Part shown: piece by piece, positions 1,858 to 17,693 of the stretch
Layout of the letters: every line of letters starts with the position of its first letter
How positions within the stretch are numbered: the stretch's first letter is position 1
Assembly (NCBI GenBank): GCA_950295325.1
Contig: OX485807.1
Coordinates: forward strand, 1,862,501-1,926,500
DNA: 64,000 nucleotides
Origin: Polytrichum commune
Lineage: Eukaryota; Streptophyta; Polytrichopsida; Polytrichales; Polytrichaceae
Reading direction: 5' to 3'
Notes under the pieces: model-generated
What the model was told of the DNA's origin: nothing
Seen by the model: the letters and a program-made list of their open reading frames with translations, nothing else
Databases searched by the model: none
Translations under genes and position numbers: made by a program

Positions 1858-3990
1858 TTGTCTTCCCGAGAGTTAAAATATATACACAAATTACTTATGG
1901 AAAACATATATGACATAAAACAACTCACCCTTCCAAACGGCACACACTTAATGTCATACATCGAATACTCAAAATACTATAAAAAACCCACCCACCCGAT
2001 AAACACAAGCTTTGAAAATAATAGAAAAATTATTTTGTTACCCATGTTGTAATGAAGAATGCCTAGAAACATGCCAAGAACATTACCCACCACGTACACT
2101 AAAAAGAGCATACGTCATAAGGGAACATAATATAACAAATAACGAAACCCGTATACACCCACTAACCCCACCACACCCAACACACCCGACCACTCCAGTA
2201 CACATAAAAAACAACCCAATAAAATACCCTATACAGTCAATAATAGACCACTACATAAAATCAACTACAGATAAATACAAAAATATAAAAAAACCAACAC
2301 ACATACCTATGCCAATGGATATTATCCAATGGAACGATATACACCAAAAACCTCCCACAAAGAGAATTATTCCCCTACAATCTCCCAAGAGTCATACAAC
2401 ATAACACAAACTTAATACTCACATACTACACCAAAATACAGCATAAAAAATATGAAAATATCATAAAAGAAAATGACATGTTTGCACAAAACAAAGATCC
2501 CAAACACATTTCCCCTCCCCTGAACACCCCACTCGTGAAAATCTCAATACAAGAATGCAACCCTGAAAAAAACATTAACACTAACACAAACAAAATACAA
2601 ATACAAAATGACTCCGCCTATATCTATGATGAAACAGGCAAACACATTATCACCATTCCATACAATAGGATGACTTGGTTATGGAACCAATACAACTGCA
2701 CACTACATCAACCACATGACTTAATACCCCCTACTCAACCATTTGAAATCGAAATAGCGTGGCTTTACCAAAGGTACAAACACAGAATACCGAAAAATGA
2801 CCCACTTAAAAACGCACATCATTCCCTGCCCAAAACACTATTAGATTATATCACGACATCCTTTGAAATCACACATTCTTATTTCTCATCACCAGTCACA
2901 TGCTCAACCCATCTAACCAAATTCTTTTCACCATTTCCTAGAGATAAAATCTTTGGATCCATCGGTAACGCATTCTCACATAAGTGGCAAGGAATAGGAT
3001 ACGCCCACCCACACAATTTAGGCCCCTTCCCAGACACACATGTAATCACGCAAATACCAGCAGACACCACCAAATATGAAGAGCATACAAGACCACAAGA
3101 ATCCAATGAAACACGCATAGAACCACTCACCATAAGAATCCTATGCGTCCATCACCAAAATAATAGTATCGGTACTACAGAACAAATGAACACAATAAGA
3201 AATATATGCAACAACCTGAACATAACCCGTATAACCACCCAAATTGCTCCCCCTACCCCACAAAATCTAGAAGTCAACAAATGTAAAACATGGAACACCC
3301 TCACCTACCCCACTCCAAACACGCAACTACACAATACAATTCCACAAATCCCCAACTATGAAAAAGAAACACCACTCAAATTCCCCCCCAAGTATTGCTT
3401 CTACACAGATGGATCCTTTAACCCCCCAAAAAAATGGGAGACATTTGGCGGAGAGAAGAAGCTGGATATGGTATATATAACCAAGAAAAAAATATCAAAC
3501 TCGCACTACGACTACCAGGCCTACAAAACATATTTCGAGCAAAACTAATGGCCATCCACCACACCCTCACAATAATAAAAAACGACTTCCCAAATGAACC
3601 AGCACATATTTTCACAGACTGTCTTAACGGCCTATATGTAATCAAAAACCAAATCAAACACCCCACACTACACAATAATCACCCCGATAAAACAATATTA
3701 GAAGAAATAGTGAACTTTCTTACACAAAGAACCCAACCCACAACATTATACAAAGTAAGAGCACATGCAAACATTAATGGTAACGAAGAAGCCGACGCAC
3801 TTGCCAAAGAAGGGACATCAAAAGAACACTACAACGCCTCTCAACCACACGAATTTGCCCACTCAACGCCATACTACTACCAAAGAGACACATGGCCATC
3901 AATGGAAACAACCCCGGACAAAGGGCCCATCAGATTCCTAGAAAAACACCTAGTGACGTACAACAAGAACATAAATTTAGAATTAATCCC
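1858..3990 (+). pseudogene. Outer LINE ORF2 remnant: post-RT region and RNase H
   Basis: Decayed coding sequence read in several frames. 1858-2052 and 2012-2404 hold the post-RT region with a Cys/His cluster (FCYPCCNEECLETC) followed by YPPRTL, matching 7170-7224 of the inner element. 2478-3548 holds a linker domain (WLYQRYKHRIPKNDPL, YFSSPVTCST, KWQGIGYAHPHN) and the RNase H start YTDGSF. 3434-3990 continues RNase H with the motifs FTDCLN and VRAHANINGNEEADALAKEG. Frameshifts occur near 2030, between 2404 and 2478, and near 3440-3548. Relative to the inner element, about 40 residues after YAHPHN are missing. The usual catalytic Glu of RNase H is Lys here (RAKLMAI). Confidence 0.85.
3980..3990. 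repeat. Target-site duplication of inner LINE, left copy
   Basis: The 11 bases GAATTAATCCC are repeated exactly at 16812-16822. Removing one copy and everything between rejoins the outer LINE reading frame without a gap, which is strong evidence that this is the insertion target duplication. Confidence 0.93.
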
Positions 3991-4270
3991 TAAGAAGAAG
4001 AAAAACTTCGGTCTCCGGAGGAGACCGACGTGAATGAAGTGTCTGTTCGATCCTCCTCCAATCCGATGCCCACAGGACAAAGGTATGGAGGTAAAGATCT
4101 ACTCCTCCCTTTCGAGAGTAGACACTATAGTCACCAGTTACTAGTAATCAAGAACCAAAATGGTTAGTTTTTAGGGGGGATTGTTAGTATGGTTTGGGTC
4201 GCCAAGTCGCTAGTGCATTTGTTAGTGGATGGAGTAGAGTGGCTTAGTTACTAAAGTTTTATGGCTTTAT
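3991..4270 (-). other. Inner LINE 3' UTR and 3' tail
   Basis: Non-coding sequence between the ORF2 stop (4271) and the left target-site duplication. It ends, in element orientation, in a T/C-rich TTC-type tail instead of a long poly-A. It also holds a short inverted repeat (GGTCTCCGGAGGAGACC, + strand 4010-4026). The tail type fits LINE clades that end in short simple repeats. Confidence 0.7.
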
Positions 4271-4960
4271 CTATGGGGGGTCTAGTGTTTGGGGCAGGGG
4301 TTGGTGATTTTTTATTCTTCTTTTGTGTAGGAGGATAGACATGGCATACTTAATAGCGATAGTATTGATGTTTTTAAAAGTATTTTTAATGATAGGCATA
4401 GGTATTTTGAATTTATTTTCGAGTGATTTCATTGAAGGAATGTGTGTAGTGGCTCTAGCGCCTGCGGTGATTATAATAAGGGGATCAACTTTCCATCCTC
4501 TAGCAACGATACTATCAATTAATGGTTTATATTTGTTATTTTTTGCTTCAAGTGTTTCTGGAGAGAATCTATCATTACAGTATGTGAATTCGATGAATTG
4601 TATGGTGATGTTGGGGTCCATGTCTGTGGGGGGGTCATGTTGGTACGGTAATCCTCTAACACAAAGGATGTCAGGTCTAAATCTGGAGTTACAATGGCAT
4701 CTTTGTGTACCGCATGTGCAAGGGAGTAGCCAATTGGGAACGGTGTTTTCCTGGGATGTATTATTGAAGGTGCCAGTGTTCATGAGAATATAACATCGAG
4801 ATTTTTCAGATGAGATTAGTAATTTCCTAATTTCCCATACAGCTTTATTGTGTCTTTTGACGTGAAGTGAGTGTATATGTTGTTGTTTACACGTAAGTAG
4901 TACATGTAACCACGTGTCCGGTTCGTATGAGTTGCAAATGGGGCATGTAATAGAGGGATA
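4271..4960 (-). pseudogene. CCHC and restriction-like endonuclease (RLE), inner LINE
   Basis: A frameshift near 4960 separates FFGR from this part. A CPIC...TWLHVLLxC zinc motif lies at about 4950-4895. After it come RFRPDILCVRG, IQFIEFTYCNDRF and NNKYKPLID (main frame 4783-4271). R2-type LINEs carry the same series: CX2CX7-9HX4C, then an RHN-type triplet, KPD, a hydrophobic-Asp/Glu strand, and KxxKY. That places a PD-(D/E)XK nuclease here. The intact version is in the outer LINE at 16823-17693. A second nuclease after APE-RT-RNase H is the dual-endonuclease arrangement. Confidence 0.8.
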
Positions 4961-5309
4961 TGATGTCTACCGAAGAACAATTGTTTTTTAGCATTGCCCA
5001 TATAGGTTCCTGTTCGGAATTTGATGAGGCATGATTTTTGTTTATCTGTGATTTCCGGGTTTTCCCATAATTCGTTAGAAAGTTCTTTGTCTATATCTGC
5101 ATTTCCTGTCCATTTATAAGTGTTGGGGGTTTGTGTGGCCATGTTTTCCAAGTTGTTTTCCCTATCGTATTTAATAATTTGTTTTTCTAGGAATCTAACG
5201 GGGCCTTTATCAGGAACGTCCGTCATTGAGGCCCAAACGTCCTTTTGGTAGTAGTATGGGGTGGCATGGGCATGTTCATATGGGTGAATGGCAATTCTGT
5301 GCTCTAGTT

Positions 5310-5730
5310 CTAGCCCTTCTTTTGCCAATTTGTCTGCTTGTTCGTTGCCGTTAATGTTGATGTGTGCTCTGACTTTGTATAGTGTGATTGGTTGTGTTCG
5401 GTTTTGAAGTAGTTGTACCATGGTGGCGAGGGTGATTTGGTCAGGGTGGCTATTGTGAAGTGTGGGGTGTTTAATTTGTATATTGAGTAAGTATAATACA
5501 TTGAGACTGTCGGTAAATATGTATGCGGGTTCGTTTGGATATAGTGTATTAATGATTGTTAGTGTTTCATGTATGGCTATCATTTATGCTCATAATATGT
5601 TTTGGAGTCCATGTAGTCTTTTGGAGATGTTAAGGCCCTTCGGGCTATAGATTCCATATCCAACTCTTTCTCTTCTCCATACTTCAGGGTTAATTTCTTT
5701 GGGTTTCATAAAAGAACCGTCTGTATAGTA
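5310..5730 (-). pseudogene. RNase H domain of inner LINE ORF2
   Basis: RNase H motifs: YYTDGSF (first Asp, about 5727-5707), YIFTDSLNVLYLL (catalytic Asp), and VRAHININGNEQADKLAKEG (His and last Asp). Two stops, TGA at 5590-5592 and TAA at 5584-5586, fall between LQNIL and MIAIHETL. The TAA occupies the codon where the catalytic Glu of the AELxAI-type motif would normally be. In the outer LINE that codon is AAA (Lys). Confidence 0.88.
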
Positions 5731-7169
5731 GCTGAATTGTGGATGGAATTTTAATGGTAAGTTGGTTTGGTAATTAGGGAATTGTGGAATAAGTATGTTA
5801 TTATTATTGGGTGTGTTTGGATAGTTAGATTTAGCCCATTTTTTGCTAGGATTAACGGCAGTATTTAAGGGGGTGGGTTGTGCAATTTGTGTGTGAATTT
5901 GTAATATTTGGAGGTTATTTGCTATGTTGGTGAGTTGATTCATTTGTTCGTAGGTACCGATGTAATTGTTTTGGTGGTGGATACAAAATATTTGTAGTGT
6001 TGATAATTCTTTTCTCGTGATATTGAGTTCAGGGGGAATTGTGGGTTCTTCGTATATGATGGTGTCTGCTGCAAAGTGGGCAATGATGTGTGTGTCTAAG
6101 AATGGGCCAGTGTATGGGTTAAAGTTATGGTACCAATCCATATCTTTTGAGATAAGTATAGTGATTGTATTTGGGTCGTTTTTGGCCGCAATGCGGGCCC
6201 AATGGATGGTTTGTTGTAAGTCTGTTGCGTTATGGGGGTGGGCGTAACCAATTCCCTTTCATTTTTGGTCAAATGTTTTTCCTAGGGATCCAAATATTCT
6301 ATCCCTAGAGAATGGTGAGTGGAATTGGGTGAATTGTGTGGAACAAATAACTGGGGATGAGAAGTATGAATGGTTGATATTAAATGTTGTTATTAGGAAA
6401 TCTAGTATTGGAGTTGGTATAGTATATTGGGCACGTTTAAGTGGGTCATTTTTAGGAATACGGTATTTATACCTTTGATATAGCCACACGATTTCAGTTT
6501 CAAATGATTGGGTAGGTGATTCTAGACTATGTGGGGTATCTTTAGCTTGATGGTATTGTTTCCATAGCCATAGTAGTCTAGTTTTTGGGATGGTAATGAG
6601 GTGCCGGCCGTTGTCTTCATATATGTGAGCGACGTCTAATTGTGTTTGGATAGTGTTAGTATTTGTTTCGATGTTATTCTCTGGGTTGCATTCATTAATG
6701 GAGATATGTGCTAATGGAATTATTGTGGCAGGGATAACGTATCTAGTATCTCTTAGTTGTTCCGTGGAGAAGTATGCGTTGACGATATTTGTGAAGTGTT
6801 TGTGTTGCCTTTTCGTATAATATTGGGTAAGTAGTTCGGTGTTGTGACAACTAGTATAGGCATCACAATAGGGAAATAATTCTCTTTGGGTGCGTCATTT
6901 GTTGTATCTGGTATTATTTGTTGTAGTCCATTGGCATAGGTATGATGTGTCATTTCTTGTAATCCCGTTAGAATCTATGAGTTGTCGTTGTTTGTGATCT
7001 AGTATTGTGTGTATAGGAAATTGACGGGGGTTGTTAAGCATATTGTTGGGAGGCGGGGATAGGTGGGGGATAGGGGGGTTTGGGGGGTGTATAGGAGGGG
7101 TTGGGTGTTGGGGGAGGATGGTATGATTTATTATTGTGTAATTATTCTTTAAGGTTCGTGGGGGGTAAT

Positions 7170-7224
7170 GGTGTAGGCATGGTAGGTGGCATTCTTGGTG
7201 GCAGGAAGGATGGCAAAATAGTTG
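7170..7224 (-). other. Cys/His cluster after the RT domain
   Basis: The frame reads FCHPSCHQECHLPCLHH, four Cys at four-residue spacing followed by His, then YPPRTL. The outer LINE keeps the Cys pattern (FCYPCCNEECLETC) at about 2038-2080. Conservation between two diverged copies suggests a metal-binding element. I do not recognise the family. Confidence 0.6.
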
Positions 7225-7979
7225 ATTCGCAATGTTTAATGCACTCTTGATGAGTTTTGTAGGATTGGAGTGGTATATTTTAAAGTCGTCTGGGTTCATT
7301 AAGGTTGTGCCATTGGGCATGATTATTTGTTCTAATTTTATTATATTGTGCAATAGAAGTTTTTGTAATAATTTAAGTGAAGTGTTGGGGTTTAGGCCCT
7401 GTAAGTTTTGAGCTTCTTTCAACCATGCGGTTTCAAGTGTGAATGGGTTTAATAAGAAGCTATTTATTGTACTTTTTAGGTGGACTCCGGCTTCATGTTT
7501 AAGTAGGAATAGCGTTCTAGTGATAGGTGATGTAACACAATGATGGTATTTAATGCGGGTTATTTCTTTGGAACCTCCAAATTTTGCAAGTATAAATTGT
7601 GTTAAGCCATGATAGATTTTACCGAGTCTACCTTTGTCATTGAGGGCATTTTGTAGTTGTTCTCCGATACAACGCAAGTAGGCATTTTGTAGAGAGAATG
7701 CTTCAATTCCGAATAGATCGTGCGGGAGTTGTGTAGCGATATTAGATGTGTTTTTTGGTAATCCGCATATTATTTTATGAAGTGCTATAATCTTCTTATC
7801 GAGTTTTTTGATAGCCGGAATAGAGTATGGTATTGCGTAAAAGCTGTAGGCTATACCAACACGTATGATTGTATCTGCCATGTTGATTTTCTGTTTCATG
7901 TTGGCTGGGCATGCTACAAGGGCTTGACATTGTTTAATAACTTTAGCTGTAGTGGTATTAATTTGTGTTTTCCATTTAA

Positions 7980-8980
7980 GAGATGGTGCGAGGTTGATTC
8001 CCAGATAGGTGTATGGTTCGTGTTGATCTAAGACTGGTAATGGTTGGTTTCCATAGTTTATATTAGTGGATTGAATCAGGGCTTTGAATGTTATGGGGTT
8101 CATTTTAGATTTGTTAGGGCATCCGGTCACTTCACACTTGGGTATTCCAAGGTCCATTTCCGCCCATTCGTAGAATTTGTCTAATTTGTTTAGTTGTGTT
8201 TGTAATGATTTTAATTTGTTGGCAATCGCTGTTAGATCATCGGCATATGCTGCGGATGTGATTTTAATTTTGGAAGTTCCAAAGGTATATCCATTGTCAC
8301 CTTGTTGTAACCATCTAAAGAGGGGTTCTAAGAATATTAAAAATAAGTAAGGGCTGAGAATGTCTCCTTGCATTCTACCTCTTTGAATGAGGATGGGTAG
8401 GGTTTTGCCGAAGTATTCTCCAAAATATATAGTAGTGCATTGTGTGTATATATTTCCAATGAGGTTTATTGCATCTATTGGATATCCAAGGTCTTTCATT
8501 ATGGCTAAGAGTCTTGCATGATCAATGGAACCGAAAGCGTTTTTGAAATCAATGTAGAGGATATATATATCTTGGTTCGTAAATCTTGCGTCTTCTAATG
8601 CTGCAATGAGGAGTTGAAGTTGTCTGGATGTTCCTCGTTCTGCTCTGAATCATTCTTGGCTATCATGCAGTATTTGGTGTCTTTCACCATAAGTTGAGAG
8701 AATAGAGGTTAATGTGCTTGTGTATAGTTTGTATATGGTGCTAGCTAGTGCAATAGGTCTATGGTTAGTAAGTAGTGATGGATCACCTTTCTTGTATAGT
8801 AAAACCATTAAACTAGTTTTCCAGGATGCGGGGATTTGTTTTTGTTTGTAGCAGTGTTTAAAGAATAGAAAGAGTAGCTTGTGGAAACGTAGAGGCATAT
8901 TCTTTAGGATTGAATTAGGAATTTTGTCTGGTCCTGGGCTTTATTATTTCCTAGGTTTTTGAGGCAGAAGTCGTATGTTT
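7980..8980 (-). pseudogene. Reverse transcriptase domain of inner LINE ORF2
   Basis: RT motifs appear in order: a NNKAxGPDKIPNS block near 8950 (visible only across a frameshift), VLLYKKGDPSLLTNHRPIAL, LYIDFKNAFGSIDH with the first catalytic Asp, RGRMQGDILSPYLFLIFLEP, AAYADDLTAIA (YADD at 8247-8236), KCEVTG, and YTYLGINL. This is a classic LINE RT. One frameshift (about 8940) and one TGA (8650-8652, before FRAERGTSRQL) break it. Confidence 0.93.
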
Positions 8981-9879
8981 CTTGGTCAAAGTATGTGTGT
9001 AGGGGGGTTTGGGGTTCTCCCCGTTGTTCAATCGTGAATCCTTCTAAGTCATGCCATGGATATTGCCTAACACCACATGTGCAATGTGGTGGGTGAATGT
9101 TATGATAGTAGCATATGGATGTTGTTGGCCGATTACTGATGGATTGTTGAATGTATATTTCTTTTGCAATATCTTCAGGATTGGTTAATATGTTATTTTG
9201 TCTATCCGTGATGGAGTCGAGGGGTGAGGTTTCGGAGTGCTTAAAGACTTTCCTATTTATCTTTTTGGGACTTTTTTCATACATTTGGCGGTATTTTGAT
9301 ACGGCTTTTAGAATACAGTGTTTGATGTATTTTGTGGTGATTTTTCTGGCTTCTTTATTGGAGGTTTTTGCGATAGCGGCTATGGTGTCAATCCATTCAT
9401 TTGGGAGAGTGATTGTTGTAGGTGAATGTGGAATTTGCACATGTTGGTGGTTACGGATTTCATTTAAAATGGGATGAGTTTGTCAGTGTGGATTGTTTCT
9501 TGCAATATATATTGTTTTTCTAATAAGATGGTATGTGTCGAGGTGTCGTTTCCATTCTTTGGATAGTTTTCGTGGTAGGAAGTCACCTTGCTGAGCTGTT
9601 CTATTTGTAAGGGTTGGTATTGGGGCTGCTTTGCAGGTTTTTTCAATGGTAACTGAAATTTTTTCTACAATGTTGTCTAATGCTGTACAAGCTTCTTGCC
9701 ATTGGTCAGGGGTGAGGTTGTTGTGGTTTTCTAGTATGATGGTTAGTTCGTTTACTTGCATGGTATTTGCTTCAAAAAATTCTATATTAAATTTTTCTAA
9801 GTTTTCCGGCGGGATTGGATTTAGTATTCTAGTTGGTGTAATATTTGCGGGGGATGGTGGTCTAGCTATAAGTAAGTTT

Positions 9880-10649
9880 TGGGGTATGTGTAAGGTGACT
9901 GGATAGTGGTATGAATTTAGATTTATGTTTGTGATTGTTGTAGAGGCGAATCTGTTGTTATCTGGTGAGTGGATATAGAAACCGTCTATAAGGCTGGTTG
10001 ACGTGTAATTATAACCTCCTTGTCTTGAAATATTAGTGGTTGTTGGAATATATTCTAGATTTAGGGTTGTAGTGAAGTTTTTCCATTGGATGTCGTCCTC
10101 TTGTGGTGCTGTGTGATTATTGTTATTTTGTCTTCCGGTGAGTGCAATATCTTTATTAAAATCTCCACATAAAATGTTTGTGTGGTTTGGGTGCGCAATT
10201 ATTTGGTTGGTGATTGTGGTTTTGAGGTAGGGAATGAGGTGGGTGTCATCTACGTGTGTGGGCATATACATATGTATGATTAGCCATGGCAGGAGTGGAT
10301 GGTTGTGTATTTTTATTATTTGTAGATAAGGGGAGATATTTGCTGGTGTGGGTATCTTGGTAACATTTCCAGAAAATGCGTATTTGTTATGAATAAATGT
10401 GAGAAGACCACCTCTACCGGGGGTGTAAGGCATTCTTTGTTGTATGCATCTTGTGAGGACGTGTGTGTTGTTAAAAATAAGTTTGTATTCAGGGAATTGA
10501 TTTTGAATGTATTTAGTGGATTTAGTTGCTGTGAGTTTGGTTTCTTGGATATTTATAATCGCTATGTTGCTAAAGGAATGGTTTATTAAGCTTTGTAGGT
10601 TTGGTAAGGCTGTGTTAAGTGACGAGGCATTCCATGTTATTATATTTGT
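9880..10649 (-). pseudogene. APE endonuclease domain of inner LINE ORF2
   Basis: The canonical APE motifs appear in order: TWNASSL near the start, IINIQETKL with the catalytic Glu, GRGGLLTFI, IIHMYMPTH, ILCGDFNKDI (10169-10140), LIDGFYIHSP, and a final NSYHYPVTLH in place of the usual SDH. This domain nicks target DNA in APE-type LINEs. The domain itself is uninterrupted. The frame enters it cleanly from about 11050 and runs to a TGA at 9483-9485. Confidence 0.88.
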
Positions 10650-11293
10650 TTCGTGGTTAGAGTTTGTAATTGTTCTTGGGGCTGGTGTGGGGATGTTTGG
10701 AAGTGGAGGTGGGTGTGAGTATTCATCTATGTTTTCTAAGCCCCGGAGTGACTCGGTAATCAGTTTTACAGTGAGAAAGGTTAATTTCCTTTGGAGTGTG
10801 GTTAGTGTAGGTGGAGTCTTTTGGTTGTGGATAAATTTATATAACTCGGTATGTATAGAGTTTTTGGGGTGTATTATATCTTGGTTATTTTCAACAAATG
10901 TTGTGTATGGGTGTTGTGTTAGAATGTGTCGCTCGGGAGGGTTGTTAAGGTTGGCTAGTCTAATGATTAGTGTGTTGGTCCATATGTCGTTAAAGTGGTA
11001 AATGCGGGGTTGGGCTAATATGTTGTTACATGTGTCTATTGAGGGGTTTATCGAAATTCTAAAACATATAGTATATGAGTTGATTGGGAATGACTTTGTG
11101 TTAGGATGTATTGATGTAGGTGTGGATATATGATGGTTGTTTGGTGATGTAGTGGGTGATTCCGTTTTAGTATGGGAGCGAACGTATTTGCTATGTGTTG
11201 GTACTCTGGATGTAATTTTATTGTGTTTGGGATAAAATATGTTTTGGCTCTCTTTTTATGTGTAGCGGGGTGTGTGCGTAGGATATCAGGCAT

Positions 11294-11332
11294 TGGTCCG
11301 GGGTTAGGTTCCATATCTCCGCATTGTAATAA
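11294..11332 (-). other. 2A-like ribosome-skipping motif
   Basis: The frame reads LLQCGDMEPNPGP, fitting the 2A consensus (hydrophobic run, G-D-x-E-x-N-P-G-P), preceded by YYFINKLT. In known 2A peptides the ribosome skips the last Gly-Pro bond and releases the upstream product. 2A sequences are known near the N-terminus of some APE-type LINEs in trypanosomes and animals. Here it sits about 215 codons before the APE domain. A TAA at 11366-11368, ten codons before YYFIN ends, separates it from further upstream coding sequence (LPNLFTTTKFILKKYQ, near 11425), whose homologue at about 11930-11840 is uninterrupted, so the stop is probably a decay mutation. Activity is not testable from sequence. 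Confidence 0.8.
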
Positions 11333-11344
11333 TGTTAATTTATT

Positions 11345-11960
11345 GATGAAGTAGTATCCGTGGAGTTAAAGTAATTTTGGTTTTTTCTTATGTATTTTTT
11401 GATATTTTTTGAGTATGAACTTAGTTGTAGTAAATAGGTTAGGTAAGGCGGGTATTATGTTTGCTAGTTGTTTAGTTGGAAAGTGTGTACTTGTGTTGCT
11501 TTTAGGTTCGTGATTTGTTATTGTGTTGGGTGTCCAGATGTTTGTGAATTGGTATTTGTTTTTAGTTTTGTGGCGAGGCCGGGAGGCCGGGAGGCCGAGG
11601 CCGTTTTATTATTTGTAAGTGTGAGCAATCCGCCTTTCCCAGGTGTATAAGGCACTTGTTGGTGGTATTTTGTAGGTTTATTACTGGTTGTGTTGTTTGT
11701 TTGGTTATTACTTTTGACGTGTTTGGTAAGTGATTTGGTTTTGGTTTTTGTTTTAGTTGGAGTATTATTGAATATTGTGTTTATGTGTATTTTTTGTATG
11801 GTATTTATTATTATTGTGTAATATTTTATTATAGCGTTGTTGTTGATGAAGTAGTGTTCGTGGTATTGTTTAACTTTTGAGTCGGTCATTTTGTGATTTT
11901 GTATAAGTGTGTATTTGCTTGTGAAAAATAAGTTAGGTAATATTGGATGGTAGTTGTATG
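11345..11960 (-). repeat. Partial internal duplication of the ORF2 start
   Basis: DNA and translated sequence around 11840-11960 (LPNLFFTSKYTL...HYFIN) match 11345-11445 (LPNLFTTTKFIL...YYFIN) at an offset near 497 bases. The distal copy then jumps to IFNNT and PYTPGKGGLLT, which correspond to 10490-10400. It looks like a deletion derivative of the 2A-to-APE segment placed in tandem before the better copy. The 2A residues themselves are missing from it. Confidence 0.65.
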
Positions 11961-12759
11961 TCACAGGGAGTTTTGTTGTTAGTTTTGGGTTTTGGGTTTG
12001 GTGTTGTTTTTTATATTGGTTTTGGTGATGGTTTTGGTGGAGGTTTGGGTGTTGGTGGTGGTTTTGATGCTGGTTTAGTTGTGGGTGTTGGTGGTTGTAT
12101 TGATATCTGGTTGGGTATTGGTTTAGATATTGGTATTGGGTTTGGTATTTAGTTTGGTATATGTTTTGGTGTTGGTACTTGGTTTTGTATTTGATTTGGA
12201 GTAGGTATTTGATTTGGTATTGGTATTTGGTTTGGTATTTGATTTGGTATTCGGTTTGGTTTTGGTGTTTGATTTGGTATTTTATTTGGTGTTGGTATTT
12301 GAAAAGATGTAGGTATTTGGTTTGGTATTTGATTTGTTGTTTGGTTGGATTTTGGTATTTGATTGGGTATTCGGTTTGGTATATAGTTGTTTTGGTATAT
12401 AGTTTTAAGGGATTTTGTTCAAGAGTTGAGATAAATAGTTTAATAAGGTTAGGGGTAAGTATTTTATGTGTTGTGATATGTATTGGTTTTATATATTTAT
12501 GTGTATGATTAGTTTTGTTTCTGTTTTTGGATTTTTTGATAAGTGTTTCTTGTTTGAAGGGGGTATTTATAAATACATTTTTATTTTGTTTTTGTTGGTA
12601 TCTTTTTGGTATTGAAGTGGTGAGCTTATTTAGTTTATCGCCATTAAATCTTCCTTGTCGCTTGATGAATCTTCTTTGTCGAGCATTTCCGAGGAGTCCA
12701 AGGCTGCCATGGTTTTGGTGAGGGCTTGTCGGAGTGTGGCCATCTCTTTTTTGAGTGCC
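11518..12759 (-). other. Stop-free linker frame between ORF1 and 2A, Tyr/Gln/Asn/His-rich
   Basis: One minus-strand frame stays open for about 413 codons. It starts inside the 3' end of ORF1, overlapping the last 43 codons in the -1 frame, and ends at 11518. It has no ATG before about 11889. Much of it (about 12400-11990) is a degenerate repeat of KYQ/QIKYQTKYQ and later NQHQNHHQHP units, from a tandem TTTGGTATT-type DNA repeat. The end contains LPNLFFTSKYTL and HYFINN, matching the residues before the 2A motif, then PYTPGKGGLL, matching the APE region at 10430. It may be the N-terminal linker of ORF2 reached by -1 frameshifting, or simply stop-poor repeat DNA. Confidence 0.5.
11990..12400. 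repeat. Degenerate TTTGGTATT-type tandem repeat
   Basis: Units such as tttggtatttgatttggtat recur with small changes over about 400 bases. The left part degenerates to ggttttggtg/ggtgttggtg units. It lies between ORF1 and ORF2 of the inner LINE. Confidence 0.8.
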
Positions 12760-14243
12760 CTAGCTGCCTTTTCTGCCGCGTGTGTTGCAAAGTTTTTCGC
12801 TTGACTTGTTAAACGAGTCTCCATGGTTTGCATCTCATCTCTCACTATAGCGGTCCCTTCGGCCACAACTTCCTCAACCATGTGGTGTATGTCTTTTTTT
12901 CTTAGTCCATTGGATGGGGCATTTTCCATGGCTTCTACGGTGTTTGCTAACGCGGTGTTCATATCGTTAAAGCCTAGTCGTGTAAGCTCCTCTCCCGAAG
13001 GTTTAGATATTCCATCTAAGCTTTTTGGGTGAGGAGCAAATTCGACATATTTATTACATATTTTATGATTCTTTTTTACAAAAAATTTATAGACTGCCAC
13101 ACTTAAGCATTGCACATTGCATACACCGGTGAGTTTGCCTTTATCATCCGTTTTAAAGAAGATGTTTAAGATGTTTTTCTCACCCATGCATGCCCTTATT
13201 TCGGTTTCAAGGACCTCTTTAGATTTTAATCTATTTAATTTTTTTGCAATGAGGATGAGTGCATTCTTTTTAGCTAAGTCGTCGCCCGAGGGTTTTCCTA
13301 TCGTAACATCAATGCTTTCATGCCCAAATGTTATTTTGTTCTTTCTTATATTTTCTACTTGTTCCGGGCTAGTTGCAACGATCCAAGCAAAGTTGTGACT
13401 TTCCCCTTTTCGCACATGGGTAATTTCAAAATTGTGCCCTCTATGAAATCCTTCATTTATCACTTCATTAAATACTTTGTACCATGTCTCATCTTTGATG
13501 TTGTCAGTGGTAATTTTGACTGATAACATCTCGCTTGAGGCAATGGTGTCGTAAGTCTTACAAATTTTACCTCTGTGCAATTTATTATCCAGGAGCCGGA
13601 TAATAAATGGCCTAAGTCCTTGAAGCATGGGAATACCGTCTTCTTGTATATTTTTTAAATATATTTTAGCGTGTCCCGACCATTGCTTGCCTCCATGTGT
13701 GCACATTATAGCGATTGGGTCACTTATATTATCACCTAGAGGGATTCTCATTTCATTCATCCTCTTGGTGATGCTTATAAGTGCTTCTTCTTTGGGAATA
13801 ATCATCTCATTTAATTCAAAGAATAAAGCTACGTGGTAATCCATTGCAAAGCCATCACAAGTTTCTATCTCTGAAGGAATTTGTGTGTGATGATAGTTTT
13901 GTTTACCTAGGTTGTTCATACTAGGCCATAATTCTTGAGGTACATACAGGTATGAGACAACACTATCCTGGCATTCTAGTGCTTCTCCTTCATACATGCC
14001 CATTTTGACTAGCTCACTAACACTCTTATGGTTTTCTTTTGCTAGTTTGTTGCTTGCATTCAAAACATTCATTGCTTTGAATCCAAGCCACAACGGAAGG
14101 AATTTTCCTTGTGTGCTAGACCGATTTTTAGTTTTATCAACAATAGTTAGGCATGCATTACTTGATGTCCTCTTTTTTGTTTGAGTTACTTCCATATCTT
14201 TTACCCCATCCAATGACTTTTCAAGACTACGAGCATATGCCAT
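12630..14243 (-). CDS. Inner LINE ORF1 protein, RRM-like with coiled coil
   Basis: An uninterrupted 537-codon frame from ATG at 14243 (MAYARSLEKSLDG); an upstream TTG-started extension to 14303 has no support. Residues are mostly hydrophilic. Two stretches look like diverged RRM folds: the first has LSVKITTDN, an amphipathic helix and an RNP1-like NFAWIVATSPEQVENIRK; the second runs from ALILIAKKLNRLK through ILNIFFKTDDKGKLTG to KYVEFAPHP. The last about 100 residues are helical and charged (EEVVAEGTAIVRDEMQTM, AAEKAARALKKEMATL), probably a coiled coil. ORF1 proteins of LINEs bind RNA and trimerise, which fits. Its position 5' of ORF2 on the same strand makes the assignment likely. It is intact while ORF2 is decayed. 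The RRM call is from topology only. Confidence 0.75.
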   Translation of the reverse strand: MAYARSLEKSLDGVKDMEVTQTKKRTSSNACLTIVDKTKNRSSTQGKFLPLWLGFKAMNVLNASNKLAKENHKSVSELVKMGMYEGEALECQDSVVSYLYVPQELWPSMNNLGKQNYHHTQIPSEIETCDGFAMDYHVALFFELNEMIIPKEEALISITKRMNEMRIPLGDNISDPIAIMCTHGGKQWSGHAKIYLKNIQEDGIPMLQGLRPFIIRLLDNKLHRGKICKTYDTIASSEMLSVKITTDNIKDETWYKVFNEVINEGFHRGHNFEITHVRKGESHNFAWIVATSPEQVENIRKNKITFGHESIDVTIGKPSGDDLAKKNALILIAKKLNRLKSKEVLETEIRACMGEKNILNIFFKTDDKGKLTGVCNVQCLSVAVYKFFVKKNHKICNKYVEFAPHPKSLDGISKPSGEELTRLGFNDMNTALANTVEAMENAPSNGLRKKDIHHMVEEVVAEGTAIVRDEMQTMETRLTSQAKNFATHAAEKAARALKKEMATLRQALTKTMAALDSSEMLDKEDSSSDKEDLMAIN

Positions 14244-14299
14244 TCTGCAAAAGTAAAGTATGTTGTTATTGTATGTTTTCGATACATTTTCTTTGCTCC

Positions 14300-14572
14300 T
14301 CAACCCATTCCCTTTCCACTTATAAATAAGTGGGCTTTGTAGGGGGGTATTAGGAAGATGTTATTATTTATGTGTGTGTGTTGCTTACTATCATTTACAA
14401 AATACCATGCAATTCTGGTAGATGTTCCTTTAAATGTAGCTATAGCAGTAAAACATGCTTGTGCATAACATTTCCATAGAGTGTGAGAGAGGACGCTGTG
14501 AGAGTTGTTCCAATATAGTGTGGTAATGAGCAACCACATGAGAACAAGGCATGATGCGGTTGCAACCTTCAT
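14300..14572 (-). CDS. Small ORF in inner LINE 5' leader
   Basis: A 90-codon ATG frame ending 56 bases before the ORF1 ATG. Its N-terminus (MKVATASCLVLMWLLITTLY) is a hydrophobic, signal-anchor-like run; the rest is unremarkable. It may be an upstream ORF that affects ORF1 translation, or chance. A pyrimidine-rich CTTTACTTTTGCAG directly before the ORF1 ATG resembles a 3' splice site, so part of this leader could be removed as an intron. I do not recognise the protein. Confidence 0.3.
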   Translation of the reverse strand: MKVATASCLVLMWLLITTLYWNNSHSVLSHTLWKCYAQACFTAIATFKGTSTRIAWYFVNDSKQHTHINNNIFLIPPYKAHLFISGKGMG

Positions 14573-14929
14573 TTTTAATCTAACCTAACAATAACTAACA
14601 ATTCTATGTGCCTATTACTAGGTGCAACTACTACTACTTCTAATAAATTACAAGTGTTGTGTGCTTAACTAGTCTTATGTGTGTGCTTCTAAGTGCCTAT
14701 GTGTGTGTCAACTATGAAATCAAGAGAGTTTGTTTGTTAATTAAGTGTGTGCTCTAAGTGTCTAATTGTGTGCTTAAGAGGAGGGTTGAGAAGTCTTACC
14801 TGGTAGCGAAGGAGGTGGCAGGCAGCTCCGCAACTCTACTTAACTTCGCAGCTTCGCAGCTCCTCAGCTCTAATCTGAAATCCCTTAACAGTCACAGATT
14901 CGTTAGTTTATCGGAAGCAGGGATTAGGC

Positions 14930-16080
14930 TAATCTGTAACCTAAGGTAAGAGCTAATCCAACAGGGGTCACTTCACGAATATGGACACCTTTATTGTTGA
15001 TAACAGAAGTTCTGTTAACAAGGATTAAAGTTGATTAAGTCTCTAGTTGCTGGATTGTCTCTTCTAGATTCGTTAGATTGCTGAAATCGTAGATTTAGCT
15101 AATATTCAAGCAGCTAGTGAGTACTGATCGAAGTTAAGGTTTGAACTAAGGTCACCAAACAATTCTGGAAGCCGATATCAAGCAAGTTTGTAAGAAATTT
15201 TTTGAGCTAAGGTTGTAAACTAATCTAGGATTGGTTTTGGGCACACGTATTGTTGGTAACAGGGATGATACTAATATTTCAGAGACTTTAGAGGTTAGAG
15301 TGGATTTGATCTAATCACGGGTTGATATGAGGTCTCCTTATCGATACTATCTTTTGAAGCGATTTCTTCCTTTTATGTAGCTGTGTAGTTATTTCGGCCA
15401 ACAACAATCATGTGGTTTCTGTCAACTAATAGGAAGAGCAAGGTTTTATTAAGTTTTAGTCCTAAGTCCTGGTAAGAATTGATTCGGCAGGAGTCACCTC
15501 ACAAATCTGAGTACGTTTTATCAAGAAGAGAAGTTATGCTAACAAATCTCTATTTGCTGGATTATTTGTACTAGGTTCGTTAAATTGTCGAGGTTTTGAG
15601 CTAATCTTCAATCACTAGTTAGATCTGATCGAAACAGAGATTAGCTAAAGTCACCTAACAACTCTGGTAGCAAGAAATTAAGCTAGTCTGTATGAAATTT
15701 TTGAGCTAAGGTTGTGATCTAATCTGGGTTTTTTGTGAGGAACAGGGGTTAAGCTAAACTCCCGATTCTTTGAAGCATGAACTAAGGTAAGGTCTGTTCT
15801 ATCAGAGGGTTGCTTTTGGGCATATCGGACTCATATATGCGTATTGTTGATAACAAGGATTAAGCTAAACTTTCAGAGATTTTTGAGTTATTGTGAATCT
15901 AATCTGAGTGGGGGTTGATCTGAGGTCACCTAAGCAATACTATCTTTTGAAGCGATTTCTTCCTTTTCAGAAGCTTTTTTAGTTTCTGTAGCTATCTATG
16001 TACTCCGGCCAACAACAATCATGCGGTTCCTGTCAGCTAATCAAAGAGAGCAAGGTTTTGCTAAGTTTTAATCCTTTGAG
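14930..16080 (-). repeat. Tandem 500-600 bp repeat in LINE 5' leader
   Basis: Two long diverged units follow each other. Paired landmarks on the + strand include cggccaacaacaatcatg (15395 and 16007), gagctaaggttgt (15205 and 15700), attgttggtaacaggg (15248) with attgttgataacaagg (15845), and gcgatttcttcctttt (15359 and 15951). Unit length shifts from about 500 to about 600 because of internal indels. Repeated monomers in LINE leaders can act as promoters; here that role is inference. Confidence 0.75.
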
Positions 16081-16811
16081 CATAATGTTAGATCTAAGTC
16101 ATGATCTGGTATAGTATGACGTTTCCAATCTTTGAACTTTAGAGAGTAGGGTTAGATCTCATTTGGGCAGTGCTTTGTTGAGTTCCTTCGCTCGGTTCAC
16201 ACAACACACAGCTCCACAGTAGCTCGTTGTCTGCAGCTCTAACTTGCAGAGCCTTCGCCAATGTCTTGTTTATGCAGCAGCGCGGCTCTTGGTGCAATAA
16301 CAGCTCCTTCGTTTTAGATCTCAAGTTTGTTGATGTATCAGCACCACTCCTGTTGTAGTAGTTCCTCCTTGTAGCACATCCCAAGTTCGTGAGTGCAGCA
16401 ACACAGTTCCTAGTGTCAGAGCAGCTCCTCGTAGTAGATCTCAAGTCCTTCTCCGTGCAACTCTATGGTGTATCTCTCCGGTGTCGCTCTTGGGCAGCAA
16501 CAGATCCGTAGTAGCTCCCACCGTTGTCGACAACACTGTCTCAACTATGTCTCTGTCTTAACCAAAATCACAAGAAGATGAGTTGTGGGGATGGGTTGGG
16601 AGGTTTTTATACTCTTTGTGTGGCTACGTTAGCTGGGTGACCCTTCGGGCATCGAAAGGGTGGGTGGCTGGGGGAGGGAAGCTTGGGGAGCAACAGACTG
16701 TTGCCGCTTCGACCCTTTCCTCCCTCCTCCCTACCTCCGGCAACCTTCTGACCAAATCTCACCGCCCCGAATACCAGTCAAAGGTAAGCGGTTGTTCTTC
16801 TAAACATGCCC
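16081..16811 (-). other. 5' end of inner LINE leader
   Basis: A more GC-rich segment with repeated agctcc/gcagc motifs (16190-16460) and a terminal stretch ending at the right target-site duplication. No coding frame is convincing; the 101-codon frame at 16139-16444 is low complexity. As the start of a full-length LINE this is where an internal promoter would be expected. Confidence 0.5.
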
Positions 16812-16822
16812 GAATTAATCCC
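16812..16822. repeat. Target-site duplication of inner LINE, right copy
   Basis: Exact second copy of GAATTAATCCC (see 3980-3990). The outer LINE frame resumes here in phase (ELIP then ILYPNIDEW). Confidence 0.93.
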
Positions 16823-17693
16823 CATATTATACCCCAACATAGATGAATGGATAGCCAACGACAAAATAGACAATGAGTTATCCAATAAATTTTGGACAAA
16901 CAAAAACATAACTGACTCCCAAAAAACATGCCTTCTAAAACTGCGACACGGTCAATACATGGGAAATGCCAGGAAACAACTATTCTTTGGCAGAGAAGCT
17001 TTTCCATCAATTACATGCCCCATATGTGACTCAACAGACCCGGATACATGGCTACATGTACTTCTAAAATGCAAACAACACCACATACATGCCCTCCGCA
17101 CCAAAAGACACAATAAAGCAGTATGGGAATTAAGAAAACTTTTGGTGTCATCAAAAAAATCAAGATGTTTTATTCTCATGAATGCAGGAACATTCAATAA
17201 TGACCCCCCAAAAAACACGGTCCCCTCATGGTTATTACCGTGTGAATGTGGTCAACAAAGGTGCCATTGTAACGCCAGATTCAAACCAGACCTTCTATGT
17301 GTGAAAGGACTACCATACCAGTCCCCGCCCCCACTAGAACCCAACGACAACCTAACAATACAATTCATTGAATTTACATACTGCAACGATAGAATACCGG
17401 ATGAAACTATAAACCGAAAAATAGAAAAATATAAACCTTTAATAGACAATATTGCCAACAAAGGCTGGAAGATAGACCCACTAATTGTCATCACTGCAGG
17501 CGCTAGGGCTGCCACACACATCCCCTCTATGGACAACATTGAAACAACATTTAAAACCCCTAAGCAGAGCATCAAAAACACATTTGAGGCAATCAATGTC
17601 ATTGCCATACAATACGCTATGTCCATAATTCTGCACAAAAGAAGGATAGAAAATAATGAGCCAATACCACTAGACACACAACTAGATAGATAA
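16812..17693 (+). pseudogene. Outer LINE ORF2 C-terminus: CCHC and RLE, intact stretch
   Basis: About 293 codons are open to TAG at 17693 (the first ATG-started frame begins at 16806, inside the inner element's last bases, and is not a true start). Order of motifs: YMGNARKQLFFGR; zinc motif CPICDSTDPDTWLHVLLKC (CX2CX9HX4C); RTKRHN; a Cys/His patch CECGQQRCHC; FKPDLLCVKG; LTIQFIEFTYCNDR; IEKYKPLID; ITAGARAATH. The zinc motif, RHN, PD, the E strand and KxxKY follow the R2-type restriction-like endonuclease pattern, with Glu instead of Asp in the second acidic position. It is the best-preserved RLE in the window, part of a broken element with no RT left, so not functional. Confidence 0.82.

Follow-up and report, generated by a model that had tools for sequence, protein, structure and literature searches.

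The window (the whole 64,000-nt stretch of DNA analysed here) contains a motif-bearing LINE copy, which we call element B, inserted into an older and related LINE of the plus strand, copy A (Table 1). The ends of element B are flanked by the 11-bp direct repeat GAATTAATCCC. Element B is broken in several places by stops and frame changes, and this copy is a pseudogene from which these proteins are no longer made. Its leader presents a tandem duplication (window 15196-15430 and 15695-16041), perhaps representing promoter repeats, and its 3' end (window 3991-4040, minus strand) presents an inverted repeat followed by a short (TTC)n tail. No Pfam match above the cut-off was found for ORF1 of element B. 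The open run of 413 codons found in this element compares with a longest open run of 199 codons in 500 simulated stretches.

Table 1. Features of the window (positions are those of the whole stretch; a dot marks features without strand).
Feature	Position	Strand	Evidence
Element B, full-length LINE copy of ~12.8 kb, motif-bearing, decayed	3991..16811	-	11-bp direct repeat at both ends, frames
Target-site duplication, left copy	3980..3990	.	sequence read
Target-site duplication, right copy	16812..16822	.	sequence read
5' leader of element B, internal tandem duplication ~500-600 nt apart	14244..16811	-	repeat families D7, D10, D11
ORF1, first ATG to stop, terminates ATA AAC TAA	12630..14243	-	frame read
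ORF2-frame N-terminal extension (remnant) with 413 open codons, -1 relative to ORF1, rich in tandem repeats	11518..12759	-	
2A-like motif LLQCGDMEPNPGP, with skipping expected after G (11299-11297) and before P (11296-11294)	11294..11332	-	
In-frame TAA, twelfth codon upstream of the first Leu of the motif	11366..11368	-	sequence read
ORF2p N-terminal region, 2A to APE; purifying selection in the family	10641..11293	-	
APE-type endonuclease (extent of Pfam match)	10152..10640	-	PF03372, E 3e-4, 21.0 bits, below cut-off of 24.5
Reverse transcriptase (extent of Pfam match)	7990..8646	-	PF00078, E 4.9e-19
PCIF1_WW-like domain	6268..6528	-	PF12237, E 4.7e-10
RNase H	5311..5577	-	PF00075, E 5.5e-7
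C-terminal region, Cys/His cluster and PD...E...K-like pattern, probable RLE	4271..4966	-	69% identity to older copy 16788-17693
Copy A, older related LINE, segment preceding the element B insertion	2289..3979	+	
Copy A, older related LINE, segment following the element B insertion (RLE region)	16823..17693	+	

The APE-type endonuclease of this family is located N-terminal to the reverse transcriptase (RT). It exceeds the Pfam cut-off in the relative L007 (PF14529; 27.7 bits for a cut-off of 27.4); among the other relatives scanned, L003 falls below the cut-off, as does the window copy, and L002 has no match. The best solved relatives of the RT are R2 proteins (E = 8e-18), ahead of L1 (E = 5e-6). 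Between RT and RNase H, we identified a domain similar to PCIF1_WW (PF12237) in both window copies (E = 4.7e-10 at 6268-6528, minus strand; E = 7.9e-10 at 2289-3548, plus strand) and in the long-frame copy L095 (E = 7e-9). The inner piece of L095 is open throughout and contains this domain together with the start of RNase H, which remains below the cut-off because the piece ends there. PCIF1 has the motif NPPF. The LINE domains present AHPHN at the position of NPPF and, given this replacement, they may be catalytically dead. PDB sequence searches with the APE and PCIF1-like regions found nothing, and the structure predicted for the PCIF1-like region was too poor to use (mean pLDDT of 36). The same applies to the RLE-like region (mean pLDDT of 40), for which no Pfam or PDB sequence match was obtained. 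This C-terminal region keeps a Cys/His cluster and a PD...E...K pattern in the two window copies and is probably a restriction-like endonuclease (RLE), and the element itself is probably a dual-endonuclease, Dualen-like LINE. Some copies, L095 among them, present a frame of 2,625 codons, composed of 281 codons of extension and about 2,340 codons starting at NPGP, and the latter about equals the distance in the window between NPGP and the end of the RLE-like region. No relatives were found in the collections of viral contigs and genome contigs.

The motif LLQCGDMEPNPGP, for which the earlier note gave no strand, is the translation of the minus strand from 11332 to 11294; the plus strand of this segment contains a stop codon. 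The reading frame of the window copy changes on both sides of the motif, with one frame change located somewhere between about 11255 and 11110. In a codon-usage scan, which is weak evidence alone, the motif's own frame appeared coding in most scan windows between about 11580 and 11150, and the APE frame took over at about 11110. The earlier note had described the motif as fitting the 2A consensus closely. GDxExNPGP is indeed present, once and on the minus strand, for an expectation of 2e-5 in the window (both strands; first-order Markov model). However, the StopGo core is given in excerpts of the published work as D(V/I)ExNPGP, or in a widened form as (D/G/C/N)(V/I)ExNPGP (PMC12846837), and even the widened core has 0 matches in the window: Met at position 13 lies outside it, so the window motif does not fit. 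Position 13 is Ile in all 67 other copies with standard spacing, which makes Met13 private to the window copy among the copies read.

Conservation of the motif and selection on its codons

The search covered a genome of 407.8 Mb in 64 contigs, C1 to C7 measuring 42-78 Mb. The host is a plant, as had been supposed: the plant telomere repeat CCCTAAA/TTTAGGG was found at three of three contig starts and one of three contig ends read, and a contig of 146,561 nt carries an intact rbcL match. The 309 amino acids of this rbcL share 96% identity (297/309, by visual count) with the best solved Rubisco, the best 15 matches scoring 681-696 bits and the next one 664; these best matches are presumably land-plant enzymes. 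APE copies were scored for 126 of 1,328 first-look candidates. Among the 125 copies outside the window, 80 were read as 3.25-kb stretches going down the E-value list, with four copies passed over (two of which have the query range, the identity and the frame length of a neighbour in the list) and one copy from lower in the list included. Another six copies, more divergent (61-71% APE identity), were read as 351-nt stretches.

We checked whether paralogues conserve NPGP, as the earlier note had advised, and 68 of the 80 copies do: 67 at the standard spacing and one (L072) displaced. Six copies present one altered residue (L010, L043, L055, L062, L073 and L079) and six have no readable motif, the stretch being damaged or missing in L087 and L080 and looked for and not found in L011, L053, L064 and L069. 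The residues preceding NPGP in the 67 standard-spacing copies are GDIEP (30), GDIES (16), GDIEL (13), GDIKP (6), VDIEP (1) and RDIEP (1). Position 14 is therefore Glu in 61 copies and Lys in six; 61/67 match the core (D/G/C/N)(V/I)ExNPGP and the other six deviate by K14. Five of the six Lys copies (GDIKPNPGP; L035, L039, L042, L047 and L048) form one subfamily with short branches and open frames of 1,249-2,924 codons. The six divergent copies read GDIETNPGP, GDIKTNPGP, GDIKTNLGP, GDIEPNPGP, GDIEPHPGP and GDIEPHPAP, i.e., NPGP in three of them and HPGP, HPAP or NLGP in one each. H16 is a reported active variant and E14Q is partly active; excerpts of the same work do not name K14 and M13 among functional variants (PMC12846837). 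The context upstream of the motif is rich in Leu and ends in CG before D12 (TLLQCG, ELLKCG, LLLLCG), and families with only 61-62% APE identity read KLLLLCGDIETNPGP or KLLILLGGDIKTNPGP in this place.

Genome-wide, the pattern GAYNTNGARNNNAAYCCNGGNCC, i.e., D(F/L/I/M/V)ExNPGP, yielded 274 exact matches (143 forward and 131 reverse), compared with none for its reversed control, which agrees with the earlier judgement that a chance match is unlikely. The positions of 100 of these 274 motif places were compared with those of LINEs. Among the matches listed, the exact motif lies 846-886 nt upstream in 36 of the 46 scored APE copies of C1 and part of C2, and at least 71 of the 100 listed places fall within a recognised LINE match or a short distance ahead of one, the other 29 being unassigned. 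Two matches on one strand are 801 nt apart (C2:36080497 and C2:36081298, both plus), and another (C1:66447114, plus) precedes a recognised 2A-region match by 705 nt; two 2As may thus be present in some elements.

We then compared synonymous (S) and amino-acid (N) changes across the motif, a comparison that the earlier note had also called for. The per-codon count of constraint around the 2A was based on the copies with NPG plus the window (n = 68); the fixed-codon count and the first part of the extension and flank count also included the six copies with changed NPGP (n = 74). On the internal branches of the 74-copy tree, the fixed codons G11, D12, I13, E14, N16, P17, G18 and P19 experienced 14 S and 1 N, for a neutral expectation of 73-76% amino-acid changes (P = 3e-8 with kappa of 1; P = 1e-7 with kappa of 4), and the free position x15 experienced 2 S and 7 N. 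The 19 codons from -38 to -20 presented 34 S and 67 N on internal branches, from which the fixed codons differ significantly (P = 1.2e-5; Fisher test). On the tips, the fixed codons presented 12 S and 10 N, the pattern that relaxed constraint on decaying copies would produce. The codons of the APE side resemble the motif (omega of about 0.16 on internal branches). No constraint is visible within the L025 subfamily alone, where codons -38 to +4 presented 1 S and 4 N on internal branches. Constraint on GGACCAATG at the nucleotide level seemed striking but was dropped, because G18 and P19 are no exception in their low synonymous change: among 60 comparable fourfold codons, 13 (G18 and P19 among them) changed synonymously at most once.

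The upstream extension and the probable entry of ribosomes

The motif had been placed near the start of ORF2. It does precede the APE, but in the long-frame copies a further 281 to at least 775 codons upstream of it are open. The NPGP frame is open back into ORF1 over 287 codons in L013, 420 in L018, 281 in L025 and 580 in L039, whereas each of the other two frames contains 19-45 stops over these extensions; the probability of such an open frame by chance is at most 1e-9 from the stop rate of the other frames and at most 2e-7 from base composition. In L026, L034, L052, L056, L057 and L078, the frame is open across all 775-794 codons read, which is a lower bound. The long-frame copies were chosen for their frame length, and many of the 68 NPGP copies have shorter ones. 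A frame open over such lengths suggests that NPGP lies inside a translated polypeptide and, based on open frames and codon-level selection, the motif would be located within a frame with coding sequence on both sides. The upstream region thus does not appear as the untranslated stretch that the earlier note had considered, since it is open far beyond chance in long-frame copies and the motif codons are under amino-acid selection. Its released product would not be a short peptide but rather a long low-complexity extension, which opens within the end of ORF1.

The evolution of the extension differs from that of the motif. In the L026 subfamily, none of the 179 internal changes in codons -200 to -38 made a stop (5.6-7.6 expected), and 3 of 216 did so on the tips (6.8-9.2 expected); in codons -400 to -200, where the alignment is poor, stop gains numbered 14 on internal branches and 15 on the tips. 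Amino-acid constraint on the extension is low, with an internal omega of 0.8-0.9 in the L026 subfamily and of 1.06-1.29 (few changes) in the L025 subfamily, for which tips gave 0.39-0.55. Indels with a length multiple of three are not favoured in the extension (2/6 in the L025 subfamily and 12/65 in the L026 subfamily) or downstream of the 2A (0/10 and 2/10, respectively); this absence of triplet bias on either side is attributable to the many decaying copies and to repeats that align badly. The extension seems to be selected for staying open and not for its sequence, which fits a spacer that would be translated and then dropped.

The extension consists partly of repeats of the module located directly before the 2A, with 36-42% identity in L025 and for the best two in L026. 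One short repeat is present in L018, none was found in L013 or L039, and those of the window (11280-12000, minus strand) are weak (E = 0.02-0.2). The upstream copies of the module are devoid of NPGP. A GC-rich block, GGCCTCGGCCTMCCGGCCTCGCCA, lies within A-rich DNA 288 nt upstream of NPGP in L013, L025 and L026, with a second occurrence farther upstream in L026, and was not found in L039. This block folds as a small hairpin (z of -2.2 and -2.9 in two copies) and encodes ASA(Y/S)RPRH.

The 2A frame is open back into ORF1 in 16 of the 32 copies with a recognisable upstream ORF1. In 14 of these 16 copies, it is -1 relative to ORF1 with an overlap of 19-25 nt; 12 of the 14 represent one subfamily (L025), leaving three independent families (L013, L018 and L025). 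The two others belong to the K14 subfamily and are +1 with an overlap of 80 nt. Among the 16 copies with an interrupted frame, the relation is -1 in three, +1 in seven and 0 in six. ORF1 ends were listed for 31 of the 32 copies, L017 being omitted because its ORF1 match stops early. Outside the K14 subfamily, ORF1 ends with A AAC TAR in 26 of 28 printed copies (16 of the 26 are from the L025 subfamily), and the K14 copies L035, L039 and L048 end with GAC TAG in the start-stop overlap ATGACTAG. No conserved ATG was found in the extension among the 32 copies with ORF1, and, of the ten copies printed, only L013 presents a classical slippery heptamer X XXY YYZ (GGGAAAC) immediately ahead of the ORF1 stop.

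We favour a -1 slip at the ORF1 stop for the majority of copies and start-stop reinitiation for the K14 subfamily; both are possible, and this is the least certain step of our interpretation. One may tentatively envision a recoding relay, in which a -1 shift at the conserved A AAC TAR, a disposable low-complexity extension and then a 2A skip would yield ORF1p and a separate ORF2p from one mRNA. The K14 subfamily, a young one, presents ATGACTAG instead of the -1 site, as if the entry route had changed and the 2A had loosened.

Alternative explanations and known systems

It is highly likely, judging from the sequences of the copies, that a genuine 2A/StopGo separates a fast-evolving extension from ORF2p in this large plant LINE family. 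The motif is present and conserved, its amino acids are under selection, the frame is open on both sides in long-frame copies, and it recurs in several families; the occurrence of skipping, its efficiency and the entry route of ribosomes are what we infer from there. A ribosome in the ORF2 frame would reach ...LL(Q/K)CGDIExNPG, let the upstream chain go after Gly and resume translation at Pro, and ORF2p would begin with Pro-Met-Pro. ORF2p (N-terminal region, APE, RT, PCIF1-like, RNase H and RLE-like) would thus be unfused to the long variable extension, which ribosomes would probably enter from ORF1, inside whose end it opens.

Alternatively, NPGP could be kept as a structural or binding motif in the N-terminal part of ORF2p, with no ribosome skipping. 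The flank GYYFIN..L and 60 downstream codons are also conserved, which places the motif within a conserved stretch, and the K14 and H16 variants persist. However, the positions that are invariant in functional 2As are exactly those that are fixed here while x15 varies freely, and GDIETNPGP persists in a divergent family whose flank is SKLLLLC in place of YFINKLTLLQC, so that we regard this explanation as unlikely. It is more improbable still that ORF2 begins at the ATG located right after NPGP, the upstream sequence being a leader and the motif untranslated. This ATG is found in 67 of 68 copies, the codon preceding it is CCA in 68 of 68, and there is no conserved ATG farther upstream in the frame; yet it lies in a weak start context (C at -3; C or T at +4), the upstream frame of long-frame copies stays open over hundreds of codons while each of the other two frames contains 19-48 stops, the motif evolves at the amino-acid level, and the few synonymous changes at G18 and P19 are ordinary for such sites. 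An ATG start of ORF2 is therefore unsupported. The decay of the window copy and its non-canonical position 13 might evoke a chance match or the relic of a single copy, but this is refuted by NPGP in 68 of 80 copies and by 274 genome matches against none for the control, besides the 2e-5 expected per window, and its probability is negligible.

Under the preferred interpretation of a genuine 2A, the family would also suggest how a long two-ORF LINE makes ORF2p separately from ORF1p. With its hundreds of matches and the variants E14K, N16H and I13M, this plant genome would offer a series of 2A sites mutated in nature. The primary papers on the 2A of non-LTR retrotransposons are reportedly those of Heras 2006 and Odon 2013. 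In APE-type LINEs, 2As are known from L1Tc of Trypanosoma cruzi and from sea urchin and other animal elements, according to excerpts of two articles (PMC4981915, PMC5972666); the earlier statement that protist and animal LINEs possess such motifs is borne out for trypanosomes and animals. The motif described here resembles these in its D(V/I)ExNPGP core within a LINE protein (PMC4981915, PMC5972666). In contrast to L1Tc and the animal 2A LINEs, the host is a plant, the element probably contains both APE and RLE, and the motif sits between a variable extension overlapping ORF1 and an ORF2p of about 2,340 amino acids.

The presence of APE, RT and RNase H in one ORF2, and putatively of an RLE as well, is shared with Dualen/RandI of green algae, as these are defined in excerpts of two sources (PMC3636483, PMC4640811). 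The RT, which is closest to R2 among solved structures, may likewise be comparable. The PCIF1-like domain is an addition of this element. In the parts of a 2013 review at hand, flowering plants contain almost only L1 and some RTE, and the table of plant LINEs has RandI under green algae only (PMC3747384). A probable dual-endonuclease LINE in this plant would therefore widen a group that is listed, among plants, only in green algae (PMC3747384). Among the best matches in the open-licence literature, we found no report of 2As with LINEs in plants or of Dualen/RandI in plants; one 2025 survey of eukaryotic and viral 2As (Rao et al.) was beyond the reach of this search. A 2A LINE in a plant host and in a probably dual-endonuclease (Dualen-like) element appears to be new.

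With the leucine-rich viral StopGo motifs 2 and 6, the family shares a Leu-rich hexapeptide ending in (A/S/C)G and a D at position 12 (PMC12846837). Unlike these, it is found in a plant mobile element and has P, S, L or T at position 15. According to excerpts of that work, StopGo is never or rarely used by cellular organisms, and nearly 10,000 viral StopGo sequences include no convincing plant-virus case (the few candidates were not judged genuine), although StopGo is functional in plant cells (PMC12846837). Finally, our reading is similar to the coupling of ORF1 and ORF2 in SART1 and L1, as far as excerpts describe it, in that ribosomes would arrive at the downstream LINE ORF directly after completing ORF1 (PMC5972666). 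Unlike SART1 and L1, the three unbroken -1 families overlap at A AAC TAR, with no start codon in the overlap and the 2A coming later.
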